DNA of 7,124 nucleotides from a bacterium (lineage in GTDB: Bacteria; UBP15; UBA6099; DSWB01), in NCBI GenBank assembly GCA_020061125.1, contig JAGUYV010000129.1, positions 1 through 7,124 on the forward strand. The letters are read 5' to 3'. How positions within the stretch are numbered: the first letter of the stretch is position 1; the number at the start of each line of letters is the position of its first letter. The position numbers and the translations under genes are program-made. The notes beneath the pieces were generated by a model. It saw only the letters and a program-made list of their open reading frames with translations. It had not been told where the DNA came from and made no database searches. Below are positions 1 through 7,124 of the stretch, one piece after another.

Positions 1-63
1 GCGCTGGCGGCGGGCGCGGCCCTGCTCCTCGCCATGGCGCGCGTTCGCAACCGCGGACAATGA
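1..63 (+). CDS. C-terminal end of an upstream gene, probably a membrane protein (partial)
   Basis: Frame 1 is open from the window edge to a TGA at 61-63, giving only 20 residues. They are an Ala/Leu-rich hydrophobic run (about residues 1-12) followed by a tail with three arginines. That resembles a last transmembrane helix with a positively charged cytoplasmic end. It lies on the same strand as the binding-protein array and ends 31 nt before that array's predicted -10 element, so it could belong to the same functional locus, for example as a permease or a sensor. The fragment is too short to identify, and an open frame of this length in GC-rich DNA could be chance. Confidence 0.4.
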   Translation, partial: ALAAGAALLLAMARVRNRGQ

Positions 64-90
64 CGCATTATTAAAGAAAATTCGATCTTG

Positions 91-99
91 TGTTATAAT
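91..99 (+). promoter_or_regulatory. Extended -10 promoter for the binding-protein operon
   Basis: TGTTATAAT at 91-99 is a perfect extended -10 (TGn followed by TATAAT) of the sigma-70 type. It sits in the only clearly AT-rich stretch before the first binding-protein gene. The -35 candidate with 17-nt spacing (TTAAAG, 71-76) matches consensus at only three of six positions, which is usual for extended -10 promoters. Transcription would start near 106 and leave a leader of about 170 nt. Sequence match only. Confidence 0.55.
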
Positions 100-120
100 T
101 CGGTTCGCGCAAGGCCTGAA

Positions 121-163
121 CAATCCGTTTTCCCGCGCTGCGAAAGATTGCGCGTTCGGATTG
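121..163 (+). other. Nested stem-loop in the predicted 5' leader of the binding-protein operon
   Basis: CAATCCG at 121-127 pairs perfectly with CGGATTG at 157-163. Inside it, CGCGC at 134-138 pairs with GCGCG at 150-154, leaving an 11-nt loop and an internal loop between the two stems. The element begins about 15 nt after the predicted transcription start, so it could act as a leader RNA structure or as a DNA operator. No named riboswitch or regulator site is recognised. Confidence 0.4.
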
Positions 164-263
164 CATTAATAATTGATGAAAAAGCCGTTGGGAACGCATG
201 CGCGGCGCGAGAGCACGAATCCCGCAGAGGGGCGCAGCCAGGCCGGACCGCCAAGTTTGGGAC

Positions 264-268
264 AGGAG
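264..268 (+). promoter_or_regulatory. Ribosome binding site fixing the start of the first binding protein
   Basis: AGGAG at 264-268 lies 9 nt before ATG 278. This selects 278 over the in-frame ATG at 287 (18 nt away) and over the upstream in-frame ATG at 173. Starting at 173 would put about 35 charged residues ahead of the signal peptide. Confidence 0.8.
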
Positions 269-277
269 TTCAGAAAT

Positions 278-1216
278 ATGCCCGAAATGCGATTCAAGCT
301 CGCAATGGTATTTGCGCTGTTTCTGGCCCTGGCGCCGGGGGTTTGCGCCAGCGCCGAGACCTACACCTTCATCATGCCCGTGCCAAAGAATTTGAGCATC
401 GGCTCCATAGCCCAGCTCACCAAAAACGCGGGCGCAGCCATCAACAAAAAAACCGGCCTCAACATCGTGGTCCAAGAATACGAGTATTCTTATCTGGACG
501 AGCCGATGTTCAAGCTCCTGGACAAGCTCAACGCCGGCCAGCTCGATTTCCTGCTCGCGTTCCCAGCGGACTATATGCGCTATAAAATCAAGAATCCCAA
601 GGACAAATCCCTGCCCCTTTTCACGGTGAGCATGTTCGGCCGCCACACGCATGATGTGTGTTTCTACACGCGCGCTTCCGACGGCATGTCCAAACCCGCG
701 GACCTCAAGGGCAAGTCCTGGGGCGGCGCGCGCCTGCGCTATCCGCAATACCTGCTGCACGAAGCCGGCATTGACGCCGACCCGAACAAGTTCTTCGGCA
801 AGCTCTCCTTCATGCAGGAAGAGAACATCAACGAGATGCTCGACAGGGTGCTCAAGGGAGACATTGACGCGATCTCCATGCCCACCTACCAGGTCAACAT
901 GGTCATCAACGCGGACAAAAAATACAAGGCCATCAAGTCCTTCGGGTGCAAGGAATACGAGCACAACTGGATCATCGTGTACCGAAAGGGCATTCCCAAA
1001 GAGCACGCGGAGGCTCTCAAGGACGCGTTTCTGACCGCGCACAAAAACAAGGAATTCGCGCAGTTCAAGTTCCTGCTCACCGCCATCAAGGGCCGCTTCG
1101 AGGCCGTGGACATCCAGGACCTCAAAAACTCGATCCGCATCGCAAAACTCATGAACAAGTACAAGTGGATTGACAAGGAAACAGCGTACCTCAAGAAATA
1201 CAAGGACAAATTCTGA
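278..1216 (+). CDS. Periplasmic substrate-binding protein, PhnD-like family (paralogue 1 of 4)
   Basis: A 312-residue secreted binding protein of the type II periplasmic class related to PhnD-like (phosphate/phosphite/phosphonate) binders. A Sec signal peptide covers residues 1-26, with a likely signal peptidase I cut after ASA. The mature chain opens with the YTFIMP strand and an LSIGS loop (39-43). The second lobe follows, with DLKGKSWGG (142-150), AGIDAD..KFFGK (163-175), a LDRVLKGDIDA helix-strand (188-198), and EYEHNW (226-231). The mature protein has exactly two cysteines, C128 and C224, conserved in the three paralogues. It differs from them in the presumed ligand loop after WGG: L153 and Q157 stand where the others have Thr and Arg, so it may bind a different ligand. 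It is first in the array; paralogue 2 starts 11 nt after its stop. The family call rests on the overall pattern. The ligand is unknown and the phosphonate name should not be taken literally. Confidence 0.85.
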   Translation: MPEMRFKLAMVFALFLALAPGVCASAETYTFIMPVPKNLSIGSIAQLTKNAGAAINKKTGLNIVVQEYEYSYLDEPMFKLLDKLNAGQLDFLLAFPADYMRYKIKNPKDKSLPLFTVSMFGRHTHDVCFYTRASDGMSKPADLKGKSWGGARLRYPQYLLHEAGIDADPNKFFGKLSFMQEENINEMLDRVLKGDIDAISMPTYQVNMVINADKKYKAIKSFGCKEYEHNWIIVYRKGIPKEHAEALKDAFLTAHKNKEFAQFKFLLTAIKGRFEAVDIQDLKNSIRIAKLMNKYKWIDKETAYLKKYKDKF

Positions 1217-1227
1217 CAGGAGCGGAC

Positions 1228-2157
1228 ATGACCCCGAAACGCATCGCCATCATCTTCGCGCTGGTTCTGTGCCTGGGCGCGGCCGCCAGATGCGCCGCGC
1301 AAACTTACACCATGATCATGCCCACGCCCAAGGGCTTGAGCATGGGATCCATGGATGCGCTGCTCAAGGACATGGGCAAAGCCATAGAGAGAAAGACCGG
1401 CATCAAGGTCACCGTGGTCAATCTGGAATTCGATTACCTGGACACGCCTGTGGAAGACACTCTTGCCAAGATGAAAGCGGGCAAAGTGGACCTGGCCATG
1501 GTTTTCGGCATTGACTATGTGCGCTACGCCGCCAACAACAAGATCAACGCCGTGCCCCTGTTCGCCATCAGCATGTTCGGCCGCTCCTCGTACGATGTGT
1601 GCCTGTTCACGCGCAAGGCCGACAACATCAAGAGCGCCAAAGACCTCAAGGGCAAAGTCTGGGGCGGCGTGAAAACCAAGAACGCGCGGTACATCATGCA
1701 CCTCGACGGCATTGACAAGCCCATGAGCGGCTTTTTCTCCAAACTCGTGTACATGCCAGAGGAAAATGTGGTCACCCTGCTCGACGCGCTGCTGGACAAA
1801 AAAATTGATGTGTTCACCGTGCCCAACTACCAGGTGAACATGACCCGCAACACCAACAAGAAATACAACCAGGTGGCGGACATAAGCTGCCGCGAGTACG
1901 AACACAACTGGTTTATCGTTTACAACAAAGACACCGTGAGCAAGGAAAACGCGGCCAAGATCAAGGAAGCGTTCATGGCCGCGCACAAGGATCCGCAGTT
2001 CGCGCAATTCAAGTTCCTGCTCACCGCGGTCAAGGGCCGGTTCGTGGGCATGGAAATCAAGGACCTCGCCAACACGGTGAAAATCGTCAAGTATCTGCAA
2101 AAATACAAATGGGATCAAGAGGAACTGGCGTTCATCAAGAAGAACTTCAAGAGGTGA
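1228..2157 (+). CDS. Periplasmic substrate-binding protein, PhnD-like family (paralogue 2 of 4)
   Basis: A 309-residue secreted binding protein with the same architecture as its neighbours. The signal peptide spans about residues 1-24, with a likely cut after CAA before QTYTMIMP. Landmarks are GLSMGS (36-41), SMFGR (115-119), DLKGKVWGG (139-147), T150 and R154-Y155 in the presumed ligand loop, GIDKPM (161-166), LLDALLDKKIDV (184-195) and EYEHNW (223-228). Its two mature cysteines are C125 and C221, 96 residues apart exactly as in paralogue 1. AGGAG at 1218-1222, 5 nt before the ATG, sets the start. The C-terminal part matches paralogue 1 most closely, including a nearly identical 43-nt block (2002-2044 against 1058-1100). 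This points to tandem duplication. Ligand unknown. Confidence 0.85.
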   Translation: MTPKRIAIIFALVLCLGAAARCAAQTYTMIMPTPKGLSMGSMDALLKDMGKAIERKTGIKVTVVNLEFDYLDTPVEDTLAKMKAGKVDLAMVFGIDYVRYAANNKINAVPLFAISMFGRSSYDVCLFTRKADNIKSAKDLKGKVWGGVKTKNARYIMHLDGIDKPMSGFFSKLVYMPEENVVTLLDALLDKKIDVFTVPNYQVNMTRNTNKKYNQVADISCREYEHNWFIVYNKDTVSKENAAKIKEAFMAAHKDPQFAQFKFLLTAVKGRFVGMEIKDLANTVKIVKYLQKYKWDQEELAFIKKNFKR

Positions 2158-2158
2158 C

Positions 2159-2179
2159 GGCGCGGCGCACGCCCGCGCC
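2159..2179 (+). other. GC-only hairpin between paralogues 2 and 3
   Basis: GGCGCGG at 2159-2165 pairs with CCGCGCC at 2173-2179, giving a 7-bp all-GC stem with a 7-nt loop in the 52-nt intercistronic gap. No T-run follows, so it is not a standard intrinsic terminator. It could stabilise the upstream message or reduce read-through. In such GC-rich DNA chance pairing is a real alternative. Confidence 0.35.
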
Positions 2180-2209
2180 CGGGGATTCGACACACGGAGG
2201 CCACAGAAC

Positions 2210-3124
2210 ATGAAAAACTGGAAAACAGCCATTGCCGCGGCGTTGCTGGCGCTCGCGCTCACAAGCGCGCACGCGCACGCCAAAGCCTATAAATTCTTCG
2301 TGCCGATTTCCGAGGGCTTGAGCATGGGGTCGCTCTCGAACATGCTCAAAGAGCTGGCCGCCACCGCGCAGTCCAAAACCGGCATCGAGATCCAGGTGGT
2401 GGATTACACCTACGAAAAGGGCGAGGATGTCATGCCCCGCATCGTGGACATGTTCAAAAAGAAGCAGATTGATTTCTCTTTCATGTTCTCGCAGGATTTC
2501 ATCAAGTACGCCAAGAGCGGCGAGAATGTTGCGGTCCCGTTCTTCACCATCACCATGTTCGGCAAACCCTACGCGAATATGTGCGTTTACACGCGCAAGG
2601 ACGACAACCTCAAGACCGCGCAGTCGCTCAAGGGCAAGGTCTGGGGCGGCACGCACACCGTGGCCACGCGCTACATTCTCTATAAAAACGGCATTGACCA
2701 GCCCATGAAAAAATTCTTCTCCAAAATGGTGCTGATCAATGACTCGAACACCGCGGCCATGCTGGACGCGCTGCTCGAAAACAAGATTGACGCCGCAGTC
2801 ATGGCCTCGTTCCAGGTCGGAATGGTACGCGCCAACAACAAGAAATACAACGCCCTGTCCGAAGCCCAATGCGTGGAGTACGAGCACAACTGGGTTTTCG
2901 TGCATCACAAAGATCTGCCCAAAGACCTCGTGGCCAAGATCAAGAAAACCTTCCTGAATGCGCACAAGGACAAGGATTTCGCCAAGTTCCATTTTCTGAT
3001 GAAGGCCATCCAGGGCCATTTCGTGGACATCGAGGCCAAAGACCTCAAAACCACAAAGGAAATCGTGGAGCTGGCCGAAGACAAGGGATGGTTCGCCGAG
3101 GAAAAGGCGTTTATCGGCAAATAG
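2210..3124 (+). CDS. Periplasmic substrate-binding protein, PhnD-like family (paralogue 3 of 4)
   Basis: A 304-residue secreted binding protein. The signal peptide (residues 1-24) ends in a clear AHA site before KAYKFFVP. It shares GLSMGS (36-41), TMFGKP (115-120), SLKGKVWGG (139-147), T150 and R154-Y155, GIDQPM (161-166), MLDALLENKIDA (184-195) and EYEHNW (223-228). The mature chain has only C125 and C221, again 96 residues apart. Its C-terminal third (AHKDKDFAKFHF, then a TTKEI..LAEDKGW stretch) matches paralogue 4 better than paralogues 1 and 2. GGAGG at 2196-2200, 9 nt before the ATG, sets the start. It is the shortest of the four and lacks the lysine-rich tail seen in the others. Substrate unknown. 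The periplasmic location is inferred from the signal peptide. Confidence 0.85.
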   Translation: MKNWKTAIAAALLALALTSAHAHAKAYKFFVPISEGLSMGSLSNMLKELAATAQSKTGIEIQVVDYTYEKGEDVMPRIVDMFKKKQIDFSFMFSQDFIKYAKSGENVAVPFFTITMFGKPYANMCVYTRKDDNLKTAQSLKGKVWGGTHTVATRYILYKNGIDQPMKKFFSKMVLINDSNTAAMLDALLENKIDAAVMASFQVGMVRANNKKYNALSEAQCVEYEHNWVFVHHKDLPKDLVAKIKKTFLNAHKDKDFAKFHFLMKAIQGHFVDIEAKDLKTTKEIVELAEDKGWFAEEKAFIGK

Positions 3125-3182
3125 CCGTTCACACACAGCCGGACCCGCCCGGCGCAATCCTGCATGAAAGGATGCTGATACC

Positions 3183-4118
3183 ATGAAAATCCGCTTTCAC
3201 GCAACCGCGTTCATCCTGGCTGCCCTGCTGCTTGCGGCCGCATGCCCGCGCCAGGCCCAGGCCAGAGACTATGTCATGCTCATCCCCATGGTCGAAGGCC
3301 TCGCCGAAGGCGCTTTCTCCAAGGTGCTCAAAGACTTCACCGCGGCCGTTTCCAAAAAAACCGGCATCCCTCTCAAGTGGGACGACATGAAGTATCCCAA
3401 GGGCGCCAAGATCGGCAAGAAGGTCCTTGAAGCCGTCAAGGCCGGCAAGGCCGATGTGGTTCAGATGAACGGCCTCGATTATCTCATGGTCAAAAATGAA
3501 GTGGACGACCTCATGTATCCCGTGTTCAGCATGACGCTCATGAAGAAGCCCTACACCGAGGCCTGCGCGTTCGTGCGCGCGGATTCGCCATACAAAACCA
3601 TCGCGGACCTCAAGGGCAAGCGCTGGGGCGGCACAGACACCATGCACTCGCGCTACCTCATGCTCCTCGAAGGCATTGACAAGCCCGTGGACGACCACTT
3701 CGGCTCCATGTCCTACATCCTTGATTCCGACACCAAGAAGCCCCTGGACGCGCTTCTGGCGAACAAGATAGACATCTACATCACCTCCGGCTTCGTGGTG
3801 GACATGGTGCGCAACGCGGACAAAAACTACGCCAAGGGCATCCGCGAACTCAAGTGCGCCGAATACGAGCACAACTGGATCTTCTTCGCCAGCAAGAAAA
3901 TGGACAAAGAGCACATCAAGACCCTGGTCAAGACCATTCTCCAGGCACACAAGGACAAGGATTTCGCGCAGTTCCACTTCATGCTCACAGCCATCAAGGG
4001 CAACTTCATCCCCTTCAAGGCCGAGGAACTGGACACCACCAAGAAAATTCTCAAGCTGGCCACGGACAAGGGCTGGCTCAAGGAAGAACAGGCCTGGCTC
4101 AAGAAGCACCAGGATTGA
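3183..4118 (+). CDS. Periplasmic substrate-binding protein, PhnD-like family (paralogue 4 of 4)
   Basis: A 311-residue secreted binding protein and the most divergent of the array. The signal peptide probably ends after AQA at residue 27, before RDYVMLIP. C21 lies in the signal region behind three alanines and makes a poor lipobox, so a soluble periplasmic form is favoured. Landmarks are DLKGKRWGG (142-150), T153 and R157-Y158 in the ligand loop, GIDKPV (164-169), LDALLANKIDI (188-198) and EYEHNW (227-232). Cysteines C128 and C225 are retained, 97 residues apart. The N-terminal loop reads GLAEGA instead of GLSMGS, losing both serines, which suggests an altered pocket. The SD is AAGGA at 3168-3172, 10 nt before the ATG. 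A short inverted pair (ATCC 3157-3160, GGAT 3170-3173) could partly mask it. The lipoprotein gene follows 22 nt after the stop. Confidence 0.85.
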   Translation: MKIRFHATAFILAALLLAAACPRQAQARDYVMLIPMVEGLAEGAFSKVLKDFTAAVSKKTGIPLKWDDMKYPKGAKIGKKVLEAVKAGKADVVQMNGLDYLMVKNEVDDLMYPVFSMTLMKKPYTEACAFVRADSPYKTIADLKGKRWGGTDTMHSRYLMLLEGIDKPVDDHFGSMSYILDSDTKKPLDALLANKIDIYITSGFVVDMVRNADKNYAKGIRELKCAEYEHNWIFFASKKMDKEHIKTLVKTILQAHKDKDFAQFHFMLTAIKGNFIPFKAEELDTTKKILKLATDKGWLKEEQAWLKKHQD

Positions 4119-4140
4119 CCCGGCGCCAACGGCCTCTCCA

Positions 4141-4752
4141 ATGAACGCCTTTGCAGCATGCGCACGCATCGCCCCGGCCGCGGTTCTGCTTCTGGCCCTG
4201 GCCGCGGGCTGCGCGCGCGGTCCCGCGAACAAGCCCAAAACCGCTTCACCCGGCGCAACTCCCACCGCGCCGCACGGGGATTCCTCCTATTACGAATACA
4301 AAGCGGAACAGGACGGCTTCTCCGTGACCCTGCCCGCAACGCATCGCGGCGTGCAGCGTGAAACCGCGCCCATGGACACGCCCCTCGGCCCCAAAACCCG
4401 TGTCACGCACAGCGTCGAGGCCGGGGATCTCCTCTTCATGGTCAACCTCGTGCCCCTTCCCGAACTGAATATCATGCAGGAGCGGCAGCGCGACGAATCC
4501 GTCGAGGACCTGGCGCGCGGACTGGCCAAGCACGGGAATCTGCTGTCCCTGGAGCCGGCGCGCGCCTCGGGCGGCCGCGCCTGGCGCGTGCGCTATACGG
4601 CAACCATCCAGGGCCACACCCTGCATTTCGCAGCTCTGGTGCTGTACCGCAACGCGCACCTGCACCAGTTTCAGGCCGGCGCGCTCGATCCCTCGCTCCT
4701 GGACTCCCCAGCGGTATCGCGATTCCTCGAAAGCCCCGAACTATTCAACTGA
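4141..4752 (+). CDS. Small lipoprotein, PsbP/DUF1795-like fold suspected
   Basis: A 203-residue protein with a lipoprotein-type leader: hydrophobic residues 10-22 and LALAAGC, so lipid attachment at C24 is likely. A flexible Pro/Ala/Lys linker (about 25-48) precedes one globular domain (50-203). The domain begins with YEYKAEQDGFSVTLPA, has alternating strands and a helix near 119-131, and ends with a SRFLESPEL motif. The opening 'F-S-V-x-L-P' pattern and the 'FL-S' ending resemble small PsbP/DUF1795-like exported domains, but this is a visual impression only. It lies 22 nt after paralogue 4 on the same strand and has no clear SD sequence, so it is probably translated by coupling to the array. 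It may be a membrane-anchored partner of the binding proteins. No catalytic motif is visible. It could equally be a functionally unrelated co-transcribed lipoprotein. Confidence 0.7.
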   Translation: MNAFAACARIAPAAVLLLALAAGCARGPANKPKTASPGATPTAPHGDSSYYEYKAEQDGFSVTLPATHRGVQRETAPMDTPLGPKTRVTHSVEAGDLLFMVNLVPLPELNIMQERQRDESVEDLARGLAKHGNLLSLEPARASGGRAWRVRYTATIQGHTLHFAALVLYRNAHLHQFQAGALDPSLLDSPAVSRFLESPELFN

Positions 4753-4789
4753 ACTCCGCATGGGAAATGCGATCATTCGACGCTGATTC

Positions 4790-4817
4790 AACGGCGCGGG
4801 AACAAGGGGACGCCGTT
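4790..4817 (+). other. Inverted repeat downstream of the lipoprotein gene
   Basis: AACGGCG at 4790-4796 and CGCCGTT at 4811-4817 form a perfect 7-bp stem with a 14-nt loop, 38 nt beyond the lipoprotein stop. A smaller hairpin, CGCAT/ATGCG at 4757-4771, precedes it. Neither is followed by a T-run. They may mark the 3' end of the plus-strand operon, but they do not meet the usual intrinsic terminator pattern. Confidence 0.3.
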
Positions 4818-4842
4818 ACGCCTTGTGCGTGAATTCATTCAT

Positions 4843-4867
4843 GGGGAAAGCGCGGCGGTGCGCCGCG
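4843..4867 (-). terminator. Probable terminator of the acyl-CoA dehydrogenase transcript
   Basis: CGCGGCG (4851-4857) and CGCCGCG (4861-4867) make a perfect 7-bp GC stem with a 3-nt loop, beginning 5 nt after the stop codon of the acyl-CoA dehydrogenase. Read on the minus strand, the stem is followed by CTTTCCCC, a weak pyrimidine tail with only three Ts. The position is right for a terminator but the tail is poor, so efficiency is uncertain. Confidence 0.45.
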
Positions 4868-4872
4868 TAGGA

Positions 4873-6006
4873 CTATTTGAGCAGATTGTTAGCGATGACG
4901 ATGCGCTGGACCTCGGAGGTGCCTTCGTAGATGGTGGTGACGCGGGCGTCTCTGTAGAGGCGCTCGATTTTGTAGTCCTGGATATAGCCGTAGCCGCCGT
5001 GGATCTGGAGGGCGTCGTAGCAGATGCGGTTGGCGGCTTCTGTGGCGAAGAGTTTGGCGATGCTGGCTTCGCGGGTGAGGGGTTTTCCCTGCTCTTTGAG
5101 AGCGGCGGCGTGCAGGGCCAGCCATTGCGCGGCCTCGATGTCGCGGTCGGCGTTGGCGATCATCCACTGGATGGCCTGAAACCGGGCGATGGGACGCCCG
5201 AACTGCTTGCGCTCTTTGGCGTACTCCACGGCTTCATCGAGGGCGGCGCGCGCGATGCCGATGGCCTGCGCCGAGATGCCGATGCGGCCGCTGTCCAGGG
5301 CCTGCATGGCGATACTGAAGCCTTCGCCCTCGCGGCCAAGCATGTTCTCCGCGGGCACGGCGCAGTCCTCGAAGGTGAGGGGCACGGTGCTGGACGCGCG
5401 CAGGCCCATTTTTTTCTCCGGGGGGCCGATGATCAGGCCGGGCGCGCCGCGCTCGACGATGAAGGCGCTCAAGCCGCGGTTTCCGGGCTGGCCACCGGTG
5501 CGAGCAATGACCACGAACACGGTGGCGTGCGTGCCGTTGGTGATGAACGCCTTGGCGCCGTTGAGGATATACTGCTTGCCCTTGAGCTCGGCTTTGAGGC
5601 GCGCGCTGCCCGCGTCCGTGCCCGCGTCCGGTTCGGTGATGGCGAATGCGCCCAGGCCGCTGCCCGAGGCCAGGGGTTCGAGAAAACGCTTCTTCTGCTC
5701 GTCCGTGCCGTGGCGGTAAATCGGCTCGCAGGTGAGGTTGTTCACGGACATGGTCACGGCCGTGGACGCGCACGCCCAGGCGATTTCCTGAAGAGCCAGC
5801 ACATAGCTGATTGCACCCGCGCCCGCGCCGCCCCAGCGCTCTTCAATCATCATGCCCATCAGCCCGAGTTCTCCCATGGCCCGAAGGTTCTCCTCGGGAA
5901 ACACGGCGGAGCGGTCGTGTTCCGCGGCCGCGGGCGCGATCTGCTCGCGCGCAAACTCGCGCACCATGAGCCGGATCATGCGCTGTTCATCGGTGAGTTC
6001 GAACAT
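4873..6006 (-). CDS. Acyl-CoA dehydrogenase (short/medium-chain type)
   Basis: A 377-residue, full-length FAD-dependent acyl-CoA dehydrogenase that would oxidise an acyl-CoA to its 2,3-enoyl-CoA in the cytoplasm, passing electrons to an electron-transfer flavoprotein. It shows the N-terminal helical domain (about 1-118), the first family signature AITEPDAGTDAGS (122-134), the beta domain, and the C-terminal helical domain. The latter has the CoA/FAD-side D238-S-G-R241 and GRPIARFQ (270-277), and the second signature starting QIHGGYGY (334-341). The catalytic base is E361 in YEGTSEVQR, the position used by short- and medium-chain enzymes rather than by isovaleryl- or long-chain types. GAGGA, 5 nt before the ATG (6012-6016), supports the start. 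It lies 30 nt downstream of the XRE-cupin gene on the same strand, so the two are probably co-transcribed. No electron-transfer flavoprotein genes lie in the window. Chain-length preference cannot be told from sequence alone. Confidence 0.95.
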   Translation of the reverse strand: MFELTDEQRMIRLMVREFAREQIAPAAAEHDRSAVFPEENLRAMGELGLMGMMIEERWGGAGAGAISYVLALQEIAWACASTAVTMSVNNLTCEPIYRHGTDEQKKRFLEPLASGSGLGAFAITEPDAGTDAGSARLKAELKGKQYILNGAKAFITNGTHATVFVVIARTGGQPGNRGLSAFIVERGAPGLIIGPPEKKMGLRASSTVPLTFEDCAVPAENMLGREGEGFSIAMQALDSGRIGISAQAIGIARAALDEAVEYAKERKQFGRPIARFQAIQWMIANADRDIEAAQWLALHAAALKEQGKPLTREASIAKLFATEAANRICYDALQIHGGYGYIQDYKIERLYRDARVTTIYEGTSEVQRIVIANNLLK

Positions 6007-6036
6007 GGGATTCCTCGATTCACGAATTATGGCGGG

Positions 6037-6597
6037 CTACGGCGTGTACACCACCACGAGCAGCTCGGTCTTTTTGGATCCCGGGTTGCTCAACTTGTGG
6101 ATGATGCTGGAATTGAAGTGCAGGGTCTGGCCCTTGCGCAGGTCGCTGATTTTCTGCCCCACCTCGATTTTGAGGCGGCCTTCGAGCACATAGATGAATT
6201 CCTCGCCCTCGTGCTGGTACTGCGCGCCCTCGAGGTCGCTGTTCGGATCTATGGTGACGAGGAAGGCTTTCATGTGCTTGTGCGCGGCGTCGGGGGTGAG
6301 GGTTTTGTAGGAGTACGCTTTCTGGCGCTTGATCAGCCCCTCGGCCTTGCGCTTGCGCGCCGCGGCCGGGTCCTCGCTGTCAAGAAAAGTGCCCGCATCC
6401 ACGGTCAGCGCCTTGGAGATCTGGATGATGGCCGACACCGTGGGCATGAGCTTCCCGCTCTCCACCTGCTCGAGGTAGTCTTCGGTCAGCCCGGTTTCCG
6501 TGGACAGTTGCGCGAAGCTGTACCCTGCTTTCTTGCGCAGCCGTTTCATGCGCGATGCAAAATCCGTGTCCGGCGCTTTGCTTTTCTGTGTGGCCAT
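6037..6597 (-). CDS. XRE-family helix-turn-helix regulator with C-terminal cupin sensor domain
   Basis: A 186-residue cytoplasmic transcription regulator. Residues 14-73 form an XRE/HTH_3 domain (FASRMKRLRKKAGYSFAQLS, then TEDYLEQVESGKLMPT). A basic linker (79-97) follows, then a small cupin barrel (about 108-186). The cupin has the first motif around H129-E-G-E-E133 with G140, and a second motif centred on H168. Such proteins bind DNA through the XRE domain and sense a small ligand in the cupin. The ligand here is unknown. The start at 6597 is chosen because GGAGG (6603-6607) lies 5 nt upstream. An in-frame ATG at 6684 would add 29 residues translated across a hairpin and the SD, so it is rejected. 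Its position 30 nt before the acyl-CoA dehydrogenase gene suggests it controls acyl-CoA or fatty-acid metabolism, possibly including itself. That link is inference from context. Confidence 0.88.
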   Translation of the reverse strand: MATQKSKAPDTDFASRMKRLRKKAGYSFAQLSTETGLTEDYLEQVESGKLMPTVSAIIQISKALTVDAGTFLDSEDPAAARKRKAEGLIKRQKAYSYKTLTPDAAHKHMKAFLVTIDPNSDLEGAQYQHEGEEFIYVLEGRLKIEVGQKISDLRKGQTLHFNSSIIHKLSNPGSKKTELLVVVYTP

Positions 6598-6602
6598 GGA
6601 AT

Positions 6603-6607
6603 CCTCC
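6603..6607 (-). promoter_or_regulatory. Strong ribosome binding site fixing the XRE-cupin start
   Basis: On the minus strand GGAGG is followed by ATTCC and ATG. This is an ideal SD at 5-nt spacing and decides for the 186-residue form of the regulator. The T-rich tail of the hairpin at 6614-6645 ends only 6 nt upstream. Confidence 0.8.
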
Positions 6608-6613
6608 GGGTTG

Positions 6614-6645
6614 AAATAAAACTGCGCCTGGCTCAAAGGGCGCAG
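6614..6645 (-). terminator. Terminator- or attenuator-like hairpin in front of the XRE-cupin gene
   Basis: Read on the minus strand, CTGCGCC (6645-6639) pairs perfectly with GGCGCAG (6628-6622) across a 10-nt loop. It runs straight into TTTTATTT (6621-6614). This is the standard intrinsic-terminator layout. Because the SD of the regulator begins only 6 nt later, there is no room for a promoter between them. It is therefore either an attenuator in the regulator's leader or a leaky terminator of a longer transcript coming from SCP2. Confidence 0.55.
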
Positions 6646-6767
6646 GGCGCTGAAAGGAAGCGAGGTGCGAGTCGTGAAAGACAAAAACCCGCAAAAACAA
6701 TTCGATGCTTCTTATATGCCGGGCGATCCGGCGGTCTGCATGCCCCTCGCATTCCAGAAAAATTTGC

Positions 6768-6900
6768 TTGTCTCTCTGCGCCCTCCGCGAACCTTTGTGT
6801 CCTCTGCGTTTAATCCTTTGCCTTTTTGCCTGTCCCTCCGGGGCCTCTGTGGCCTCCGTGGTTATCCCTGCCTTTGCCTTTGTTTTCGTATTTTCTTTTG
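6768..6900 (-). repeat. Degenerate 9-nt-periodic interspersed repeat (purine-rich on the minus strand)
   Basis: On the minus strand this reads as imperfect 9-nt units such as CACGGAGGC, CACAGAGGC and CCCGGAGGG. It then has an AG-rich spacer, then CGCAGAGGA, CACAAAGGT, CGCGGAGGG and CGCAGAGAG. The core is about 6771-6863 with a pyrimidine-rich plus-strand flank to 6900. Strings of this form (ACCACGGAG..CACGGAG, ACGCAGAGG..GCAGAG) recur in intergenic DNA of many environmental bacteria and often cause spurious small ORF calls. It is not coding and is not a CRISPR array: units are degenerate and lack unique spacers of regular length. Function and mobility are unknown. Confidence 0.6.
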
Positions 6901-6921
6901 CTGCGCCCTGCGCGCTGCCCC

Positions 6922-7124
6922 CTACCCGTTCAATATCTTCCCAATCTTCTGCTGCAGCGACGACAGCATGAGCGCGATTTGCGTCTGTCCCGTGATGGCG
7001 AAATCGCCACTGACCATGGCTTTCATGGGGTCGGTTTTGCCGGTGAGCACGGCCAGGGCCGTGGGCGCGTCCTTGAACTCCACGCGCGCGGCTGCGTCCG
7101 GGGCGTCGCCTGCCGTGGCCGAGA
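6922..7124 (-). CDS. SCP2 sterol-binding-domain-like protein, C-terminal part (partial)
   Basis: The minus strand is open from the window edge to a TAG at 6924-6922 and gives 66 residues. The visible part reads VEFKDAPTALAVLTGKTDPM, then KAMVSGDFAITG and a helical end QIALMLSSLQQKIGKILNG. The order 'D-x-P-T-A-L...L-T-G-K-x-D-P-M-x-A-M-x-S-G-x-x-x-I-x-G' followed by an amphipathic helix is typical of the SCP2 fold, which binds acyl chains or sterol-like lipids. The N-terminus lies beyond the window, so full length and fusion partners cannot be seen. Lying upstream of the XRE-cupin and acyl-CoA dehydrogenase genes on the same strand, it fits a lipid or acyl-CoA metabolism locus. Confidence 0.72.
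   Translation of the reverse strand, partial: SATAGDAPDAAARVEFKDAPTALAVLTGKTDPMKAMVSGDFAITGQTQIALMLSSLQQKIGKILNG

Follow-up and report, generated by a model that had tools for sequence, protein, structure and literature searches.

Tandem PhnD-like binding protein genes of uncultured UBP15 bacteria, found apart from transporter genes, may encode a set of ligand detectors

Orphan expansions of binding protein (SBP) genes in Bordetella and Rhodoplanes are a long-standing puzzle. These TctC/Bug expansions are lineage-specific and consist of tandem, diverged genes, often less than 50% identical, accompanied by too few membrane components or by none; in Rhodoplanes the arrays reach up to nine genes, and sensing has already been proposed for them, while in both genera the expansion has also been proposed to widen the ligand range of a shared transporter (PMC5994714). 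The preliminary description of the locus reported here took binding protein genes normally to occur singly, which in light of the Rhodoplanes arrays is no general rule. A different precedent is offered by ArrX, AioX and ArxX of the XSR systems, in which a PhnD-like two-lobed fold serves sensing and not transport, and of which AioX is known to act together with a histidine kinase (PMC5908839).

Here we describe four PhnD-like binding protein genes that stand in tandem on a contig of the uncultured phylum UBP15, also known as Candidatus Lagoxiota (PMC11382960), of which we found no cultured member described in the literature. The window, that is, the whole stretch of DNA analysed, is an entire contig of 7124 bp (C335) from a bin that is 79% complete. 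The four genes lie head to tail on the forward strand at 278..1216 (312 aa), 1228..2157 (309 aa), 2210..3124 (304 aa) and 3183..4118 (311 aa, the most diverged copy), separated by gaps of 11, 52 and 58 nt. Read by eye, each has its own SD-like sequence (AGGAG, AGGAG, GGAGG and AAGGA, in order) and a predicted N-terminal signal peptide. A lipoprotein gene (4141..4752, forward strand, 203 aa, lipobox LAAGC, no clear SD) starts 22 nt after the fourth copy and is probably the last gene of the operon. Open reading frames, PF12974 matches and the lipobox agree with the earlier account of four full-length, exported PhnD-like proteins followed by a lipoprotein, and its observation that no transporter gene occurs between or after the copies holds across positions 64-7124. 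Over the visible contig the locus is thus an orphan tandem SBP array, in the sense of at least three adjacent diverged SBP genes with no adjacent membrane component. Pairwise identity among the four proteins is 35-48%, as expected of old paralogues and not of an assembly repeat, and dN among the copies is 0.46-0.70.

The array is preceded by an intergenic leader of 214 nt (64..277), in which a TATAAT is present without an acceptable -35 element and a promoter scan found nothing above chance. Before it stands the 3' end of a gene (its last 20 codons, 1..63, forward strand) that is truncated by the contig end; to judge from the hydrophobic stretch in which it ends, this gene could encode a membrane protein. 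Positions 1-260 of the window overlap with none of the bin's other contigs, and a plasmid search gave no match.

All four proteins score 51-60 bits against PF12974 (Phosphonate-bd), well above the Pfam gathering cut-off of 27, and so share family and fold with PhnD, PtxB and HtxB. They differ from these proteins in falling far under the cut-offs of the NCBIfam PhnD models (22-30 bits against 261 for TIGR03431 and 112 for TIGR01098) and in showing no PhnC/PhnE partner on the visible contig and no S-T-S motif: in a low-identity MAFFT alignment, the 32 members of the window's branch of the family show a gap at S127-T128-S129 of E. coli PhnD, and the column of PhnD H157 holds mostly Asp or Glu, a pattern unlike that of phosphonate-binding residues. 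The window proteins have no match to the TctC Pfam family at E 0.1 or to DctP models in the Pfam scan, which sets them apart from the TctC proteins of the Bug expansions. Membership of the NMT1/SsuA group, suggested by a weak PF09084 match, was rejected, as no SsuC-type permease was recognised among the permeases inspected.

Our sample comprised 386 genomes, seven of them UBP15 and all seven from one order. A contig search with a single window protein found no relatives, and a profile search of contigs recovered seven UBP15 loci. With the window-family profile, matches in the seven UBP15 genomes score 340-430 bits and the best one elsewhere in the sample 48 bits, which fits both the bin assignment and a branch restricted, within the sample, to this phylum; the window's branch (32 genes) was not found outside UBP15 among the 386 genomes. 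The family as a whole numbers 86 genes, with 30 in genome G005, 8-11 in each of five others and 6 in the window's own genome. Adjacent genes form runs of seven (C118), six (C181) and four (C101, with one wider gap of 340 nt) in G005, of three in each of G002, G003, G004 and G006, and of two in others; several of these runs touch contig ends, so that their lengths are minimum values.

In a careful tree the window's four copies and a fifth paralogue from the same genome (C460) form one group (support 95/91). This group falls within a larger, well-supported branch comprising 29 rows, none of which has sensor neighbours; the nearest outgroups of the larger branch are binding proteins linked to cyclases. 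A wider, quick tree, whose long branches leave its details unsure, interleaves the orphan arrays of G005 with a cyclase-linked pair (L102). Purifying selection acts on the three-gene arrays that four genomes of a single genus have in common (dN/dS 0.05-0.13), and an acyl-CoA synthetase gene of the ADP-forming type is kept upstream of them in all four. Elsewhere the neighbours of the window's branch vary and include acyl-CoA synthetase, glycosidase, ApbE, a TIM-barrel isomerase and lipoproteins. The ApbE (FMN transferase) gene lies two genes from a window-branch SBP gene and is kept in three genomes (L050:8005-12703, L053 and L058), and a xylose-isomerase-like TIM-barrel gene adjoins a window-branch SBP gene in two genera (L051:7168-9052, L114 and L093). 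On another contig of the window's genome (C317, L043:493-1397) an SBP gene seems to be split into two overlapping frames, possibly by a frameshift or an assembly error.

The preliminary description called for a genome-wide profile search with a table of linked genes. In this search, which located arrays in the seven UBP15 genomes, a class III cyclase gene lay no more than 3 kb from 13 of the 86 family genes, against 1.85 expected from gene density, and no BPD permease gene lay closer than 5 kb to any of the 86. The 13 genes amount to about five independent loci, since orthologues within one genus were counted apart, and one of the five (L096, L097, L098) spans two families. PhnD-like SBP genes were observed directly upstream of membrane class III cyclase genes at L098:6500-9233, L096, L097, L094, L102 and L116; the gaps in immediate pairs run from -28 to +39 nt, several pairs overlapping. 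Five SBP-linked cyclases that were scanned carry a cyclase domain and HAMP, with a Cache-like region in most. In G005, contig C44 opens with the C-terminus of a third SBP (L102:1-100), followed by two complete SBP genes and then the cyclase gene. Other family members are overlapped or abutted by a histidine kinase gene (L106), and in the window's own genome closer PhnD relatives adjoin a chemoreceptor gene (C191, L041:1917-5565) or precede genes for a histidine kinase and a probable response regulator (C512, L042:716-4536). A narrow literature search found no report of a pairing between PhnD-like SBPs and class III cyclases.

The AlphaFold model of copy 2 (mean pLDDT 89) has a type II periplasmic-binding fold. 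Its best structural matches are ArrX (Z 21.8, rmsd 3.3 over 247 residues) and AioX (Z 21.3), which lead both structure rankings, with PtxB and HtxB only 1-2 Z units behind. The predicted likeness to the XSR proteins does not extend to gene arrangement or pocket: ArrX, AioX and ArxX are each encoded by a single gene adjoining histidine kinase and response regulator genes, which are absent from the window, and the column of AioX pocket residue C106 (the position of PhnD G65) holds N, F, S and others in UBP15, with no Cys among the residues listed. The UBP15 proteins, 11-19% identical to ArrX and AioX, instead carry a pair of cysteines at positions other than that of Cys106 (C128 and C224 in copy 1, C125 and C221 in copy 2). 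The pair occurs in 32 of 32 members of the window's branch and in 69 of the 72 aligned members of the family, the three exceptions being those linked to a chemoreceptor (C191), a kinase (C512) and a HAMP protein. In the model of copy 2 the paired cysteines sit on strands 121-129 and 216-226. Such strands usually join the two lobes in the periplasmic-binding fold, and from this placement we infer a putative hinge disulfide.

Since the family never stands beside transporter genes and sometimes stands beside membrane sensors, mostly cyclases, the four genes more probably serve to detect ligands than to take them up. The form of this idea that we favour, though tentatively and at somewhat less than even chances, is a bank of binding proteins, specific to the lineage and not serving transport, that present ligands to membrane sensors encoded elsewhere. 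An old tandem expansion within the UBP15 PhnD-like family, outside transporters, would have yielded copies that are each exported to the periplasm, as their export signals suggest, and that would each bind a small ligand of their own between the two lobes. The ligand-bound form would then dock on the extracytoplasmic domain of a separately encoded membrane sensor, with class III cyclases, histidine kinases and chemoreceptors as candidates, so that several ligands could be read by few sensors. The partner of the window array is a putative one, since none of the 32 genes of its branch directly adjoins a sensor gene, which is the chief weak point of the sensor reading. The window's genome, as far as its bin is complete (79%), has no cyclase gene adjoining an SBP gene, and the three of its cyclases that were read (C473, C506 and C328) differ from the SBP-linked cyclases in having no Cache-HAMP layout. 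Array contigs and cyclase contigs of G005 share no end overlaps, so that arrays L055 and L056 could not be joined to a cyclase.

The precedent proposed for Bordetella and Rhodoplanes (PMC5994714) would instead have the four proteins feed one transporter encoded elsewhere and thereby widen its ligand range, and the incomplete bin, the cut-off upstream gene and the TctA-type and DctM-type membrane proteins of the window's genome (one or two copies of each per UBP15 genome) leave room for this. We nevertheless consider it unlikely: neither PhnE nor PhnC was found above cut-off in any of the seven UBP15 genomes, three of them 92-97% complete, and the family's SBPs match no TctC or DctP model in the Pfam scan. 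Each genome does have 4-9 BPD permease matches, but those inspected read as tungstate, phosphate, peptide, sugar, iron and molybdate systems (by reading of the sequences and not by a family scan), and most adjoin SBPs of other kinds. Very unlikely, in our view, is an ordinary ABC uptake operon with permease and ATPase genes just beyond the contig end. The window itself contains no PhnE permease or PhnC ATPase gene, a gene beyond the contig end being out of sight, and the cut gene, whose 63 nt open the contig ahead of the leader, has a hydrophobic end; yet the 214-nt gap separates this gene from the array, no permease was found beside any other array with a readable upstream flank, and the position is taken by the acyl-CoA synthetase gene before the three-gene arrays of four genomes. 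Of the three roles offered in the preliminary description, then, that of widening a transporter's range has lost ground and that of feeding a membrane sensor has gained it, from the linkage to cyclases and kinases and from the ArrX/AioX folds.

The third role, a periplasmic ligand store, can be broadened to a carrier or a redox-controlled binder acting without a partner, for which the cysteine pair would be a switch or a stabilising disulfide. The invariance of the pair in the window's branch and the varied gene neighbours, ApbE among them, speak for this possibility, but the identical pair is present in cyclase-linked members and hence is no marker of a partner-free role; on balance we think it improbable. 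Presentation of ligands to separately encoded sensors remains our preferred reading. A bolder extension of it, about which we are rather doubtful, is a phylum-wide receptor bank whose tandem arrays supply interchangeable, cysteine-paired SBPs, through which a small number of membrane class III cyclases would respond to many ligands; separately encoded SBPs would thus drive cyclic-nucleotide signalling.

Compared with the Rhodoplanes arrays, the protein family (PF12974 in place of TctC), the phylum, the cysteine pair and the linkage to cyclases are new. The TctC/Bug expansions have few cognate membrane components; in UBP15 none was found, and family members pair with class III cyclases. With no cognate permease found and sister genes wired to cyclases and kinases, the sensing hypothesis becomes directly testable in UBP15.

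On contig C101 of G005, genes for a cyclic-nucleotide-binding protein, a lipoprotein and a beta-propeller protein stand beside the four-SBP run (L059:3596-6007), and the contig also carries a DctM gene at a distance of about 12 kb. Downstream of the window array, the minus strand carries an acyl-CoA dehydrogenase gene and an HTH-cupin regulator gene (4873-6597), convergent with the array, together with an SCP2-like fragment; the dehydrogenase resembles acryloyl-CoA reductase, with a score under the cut-off of that model.
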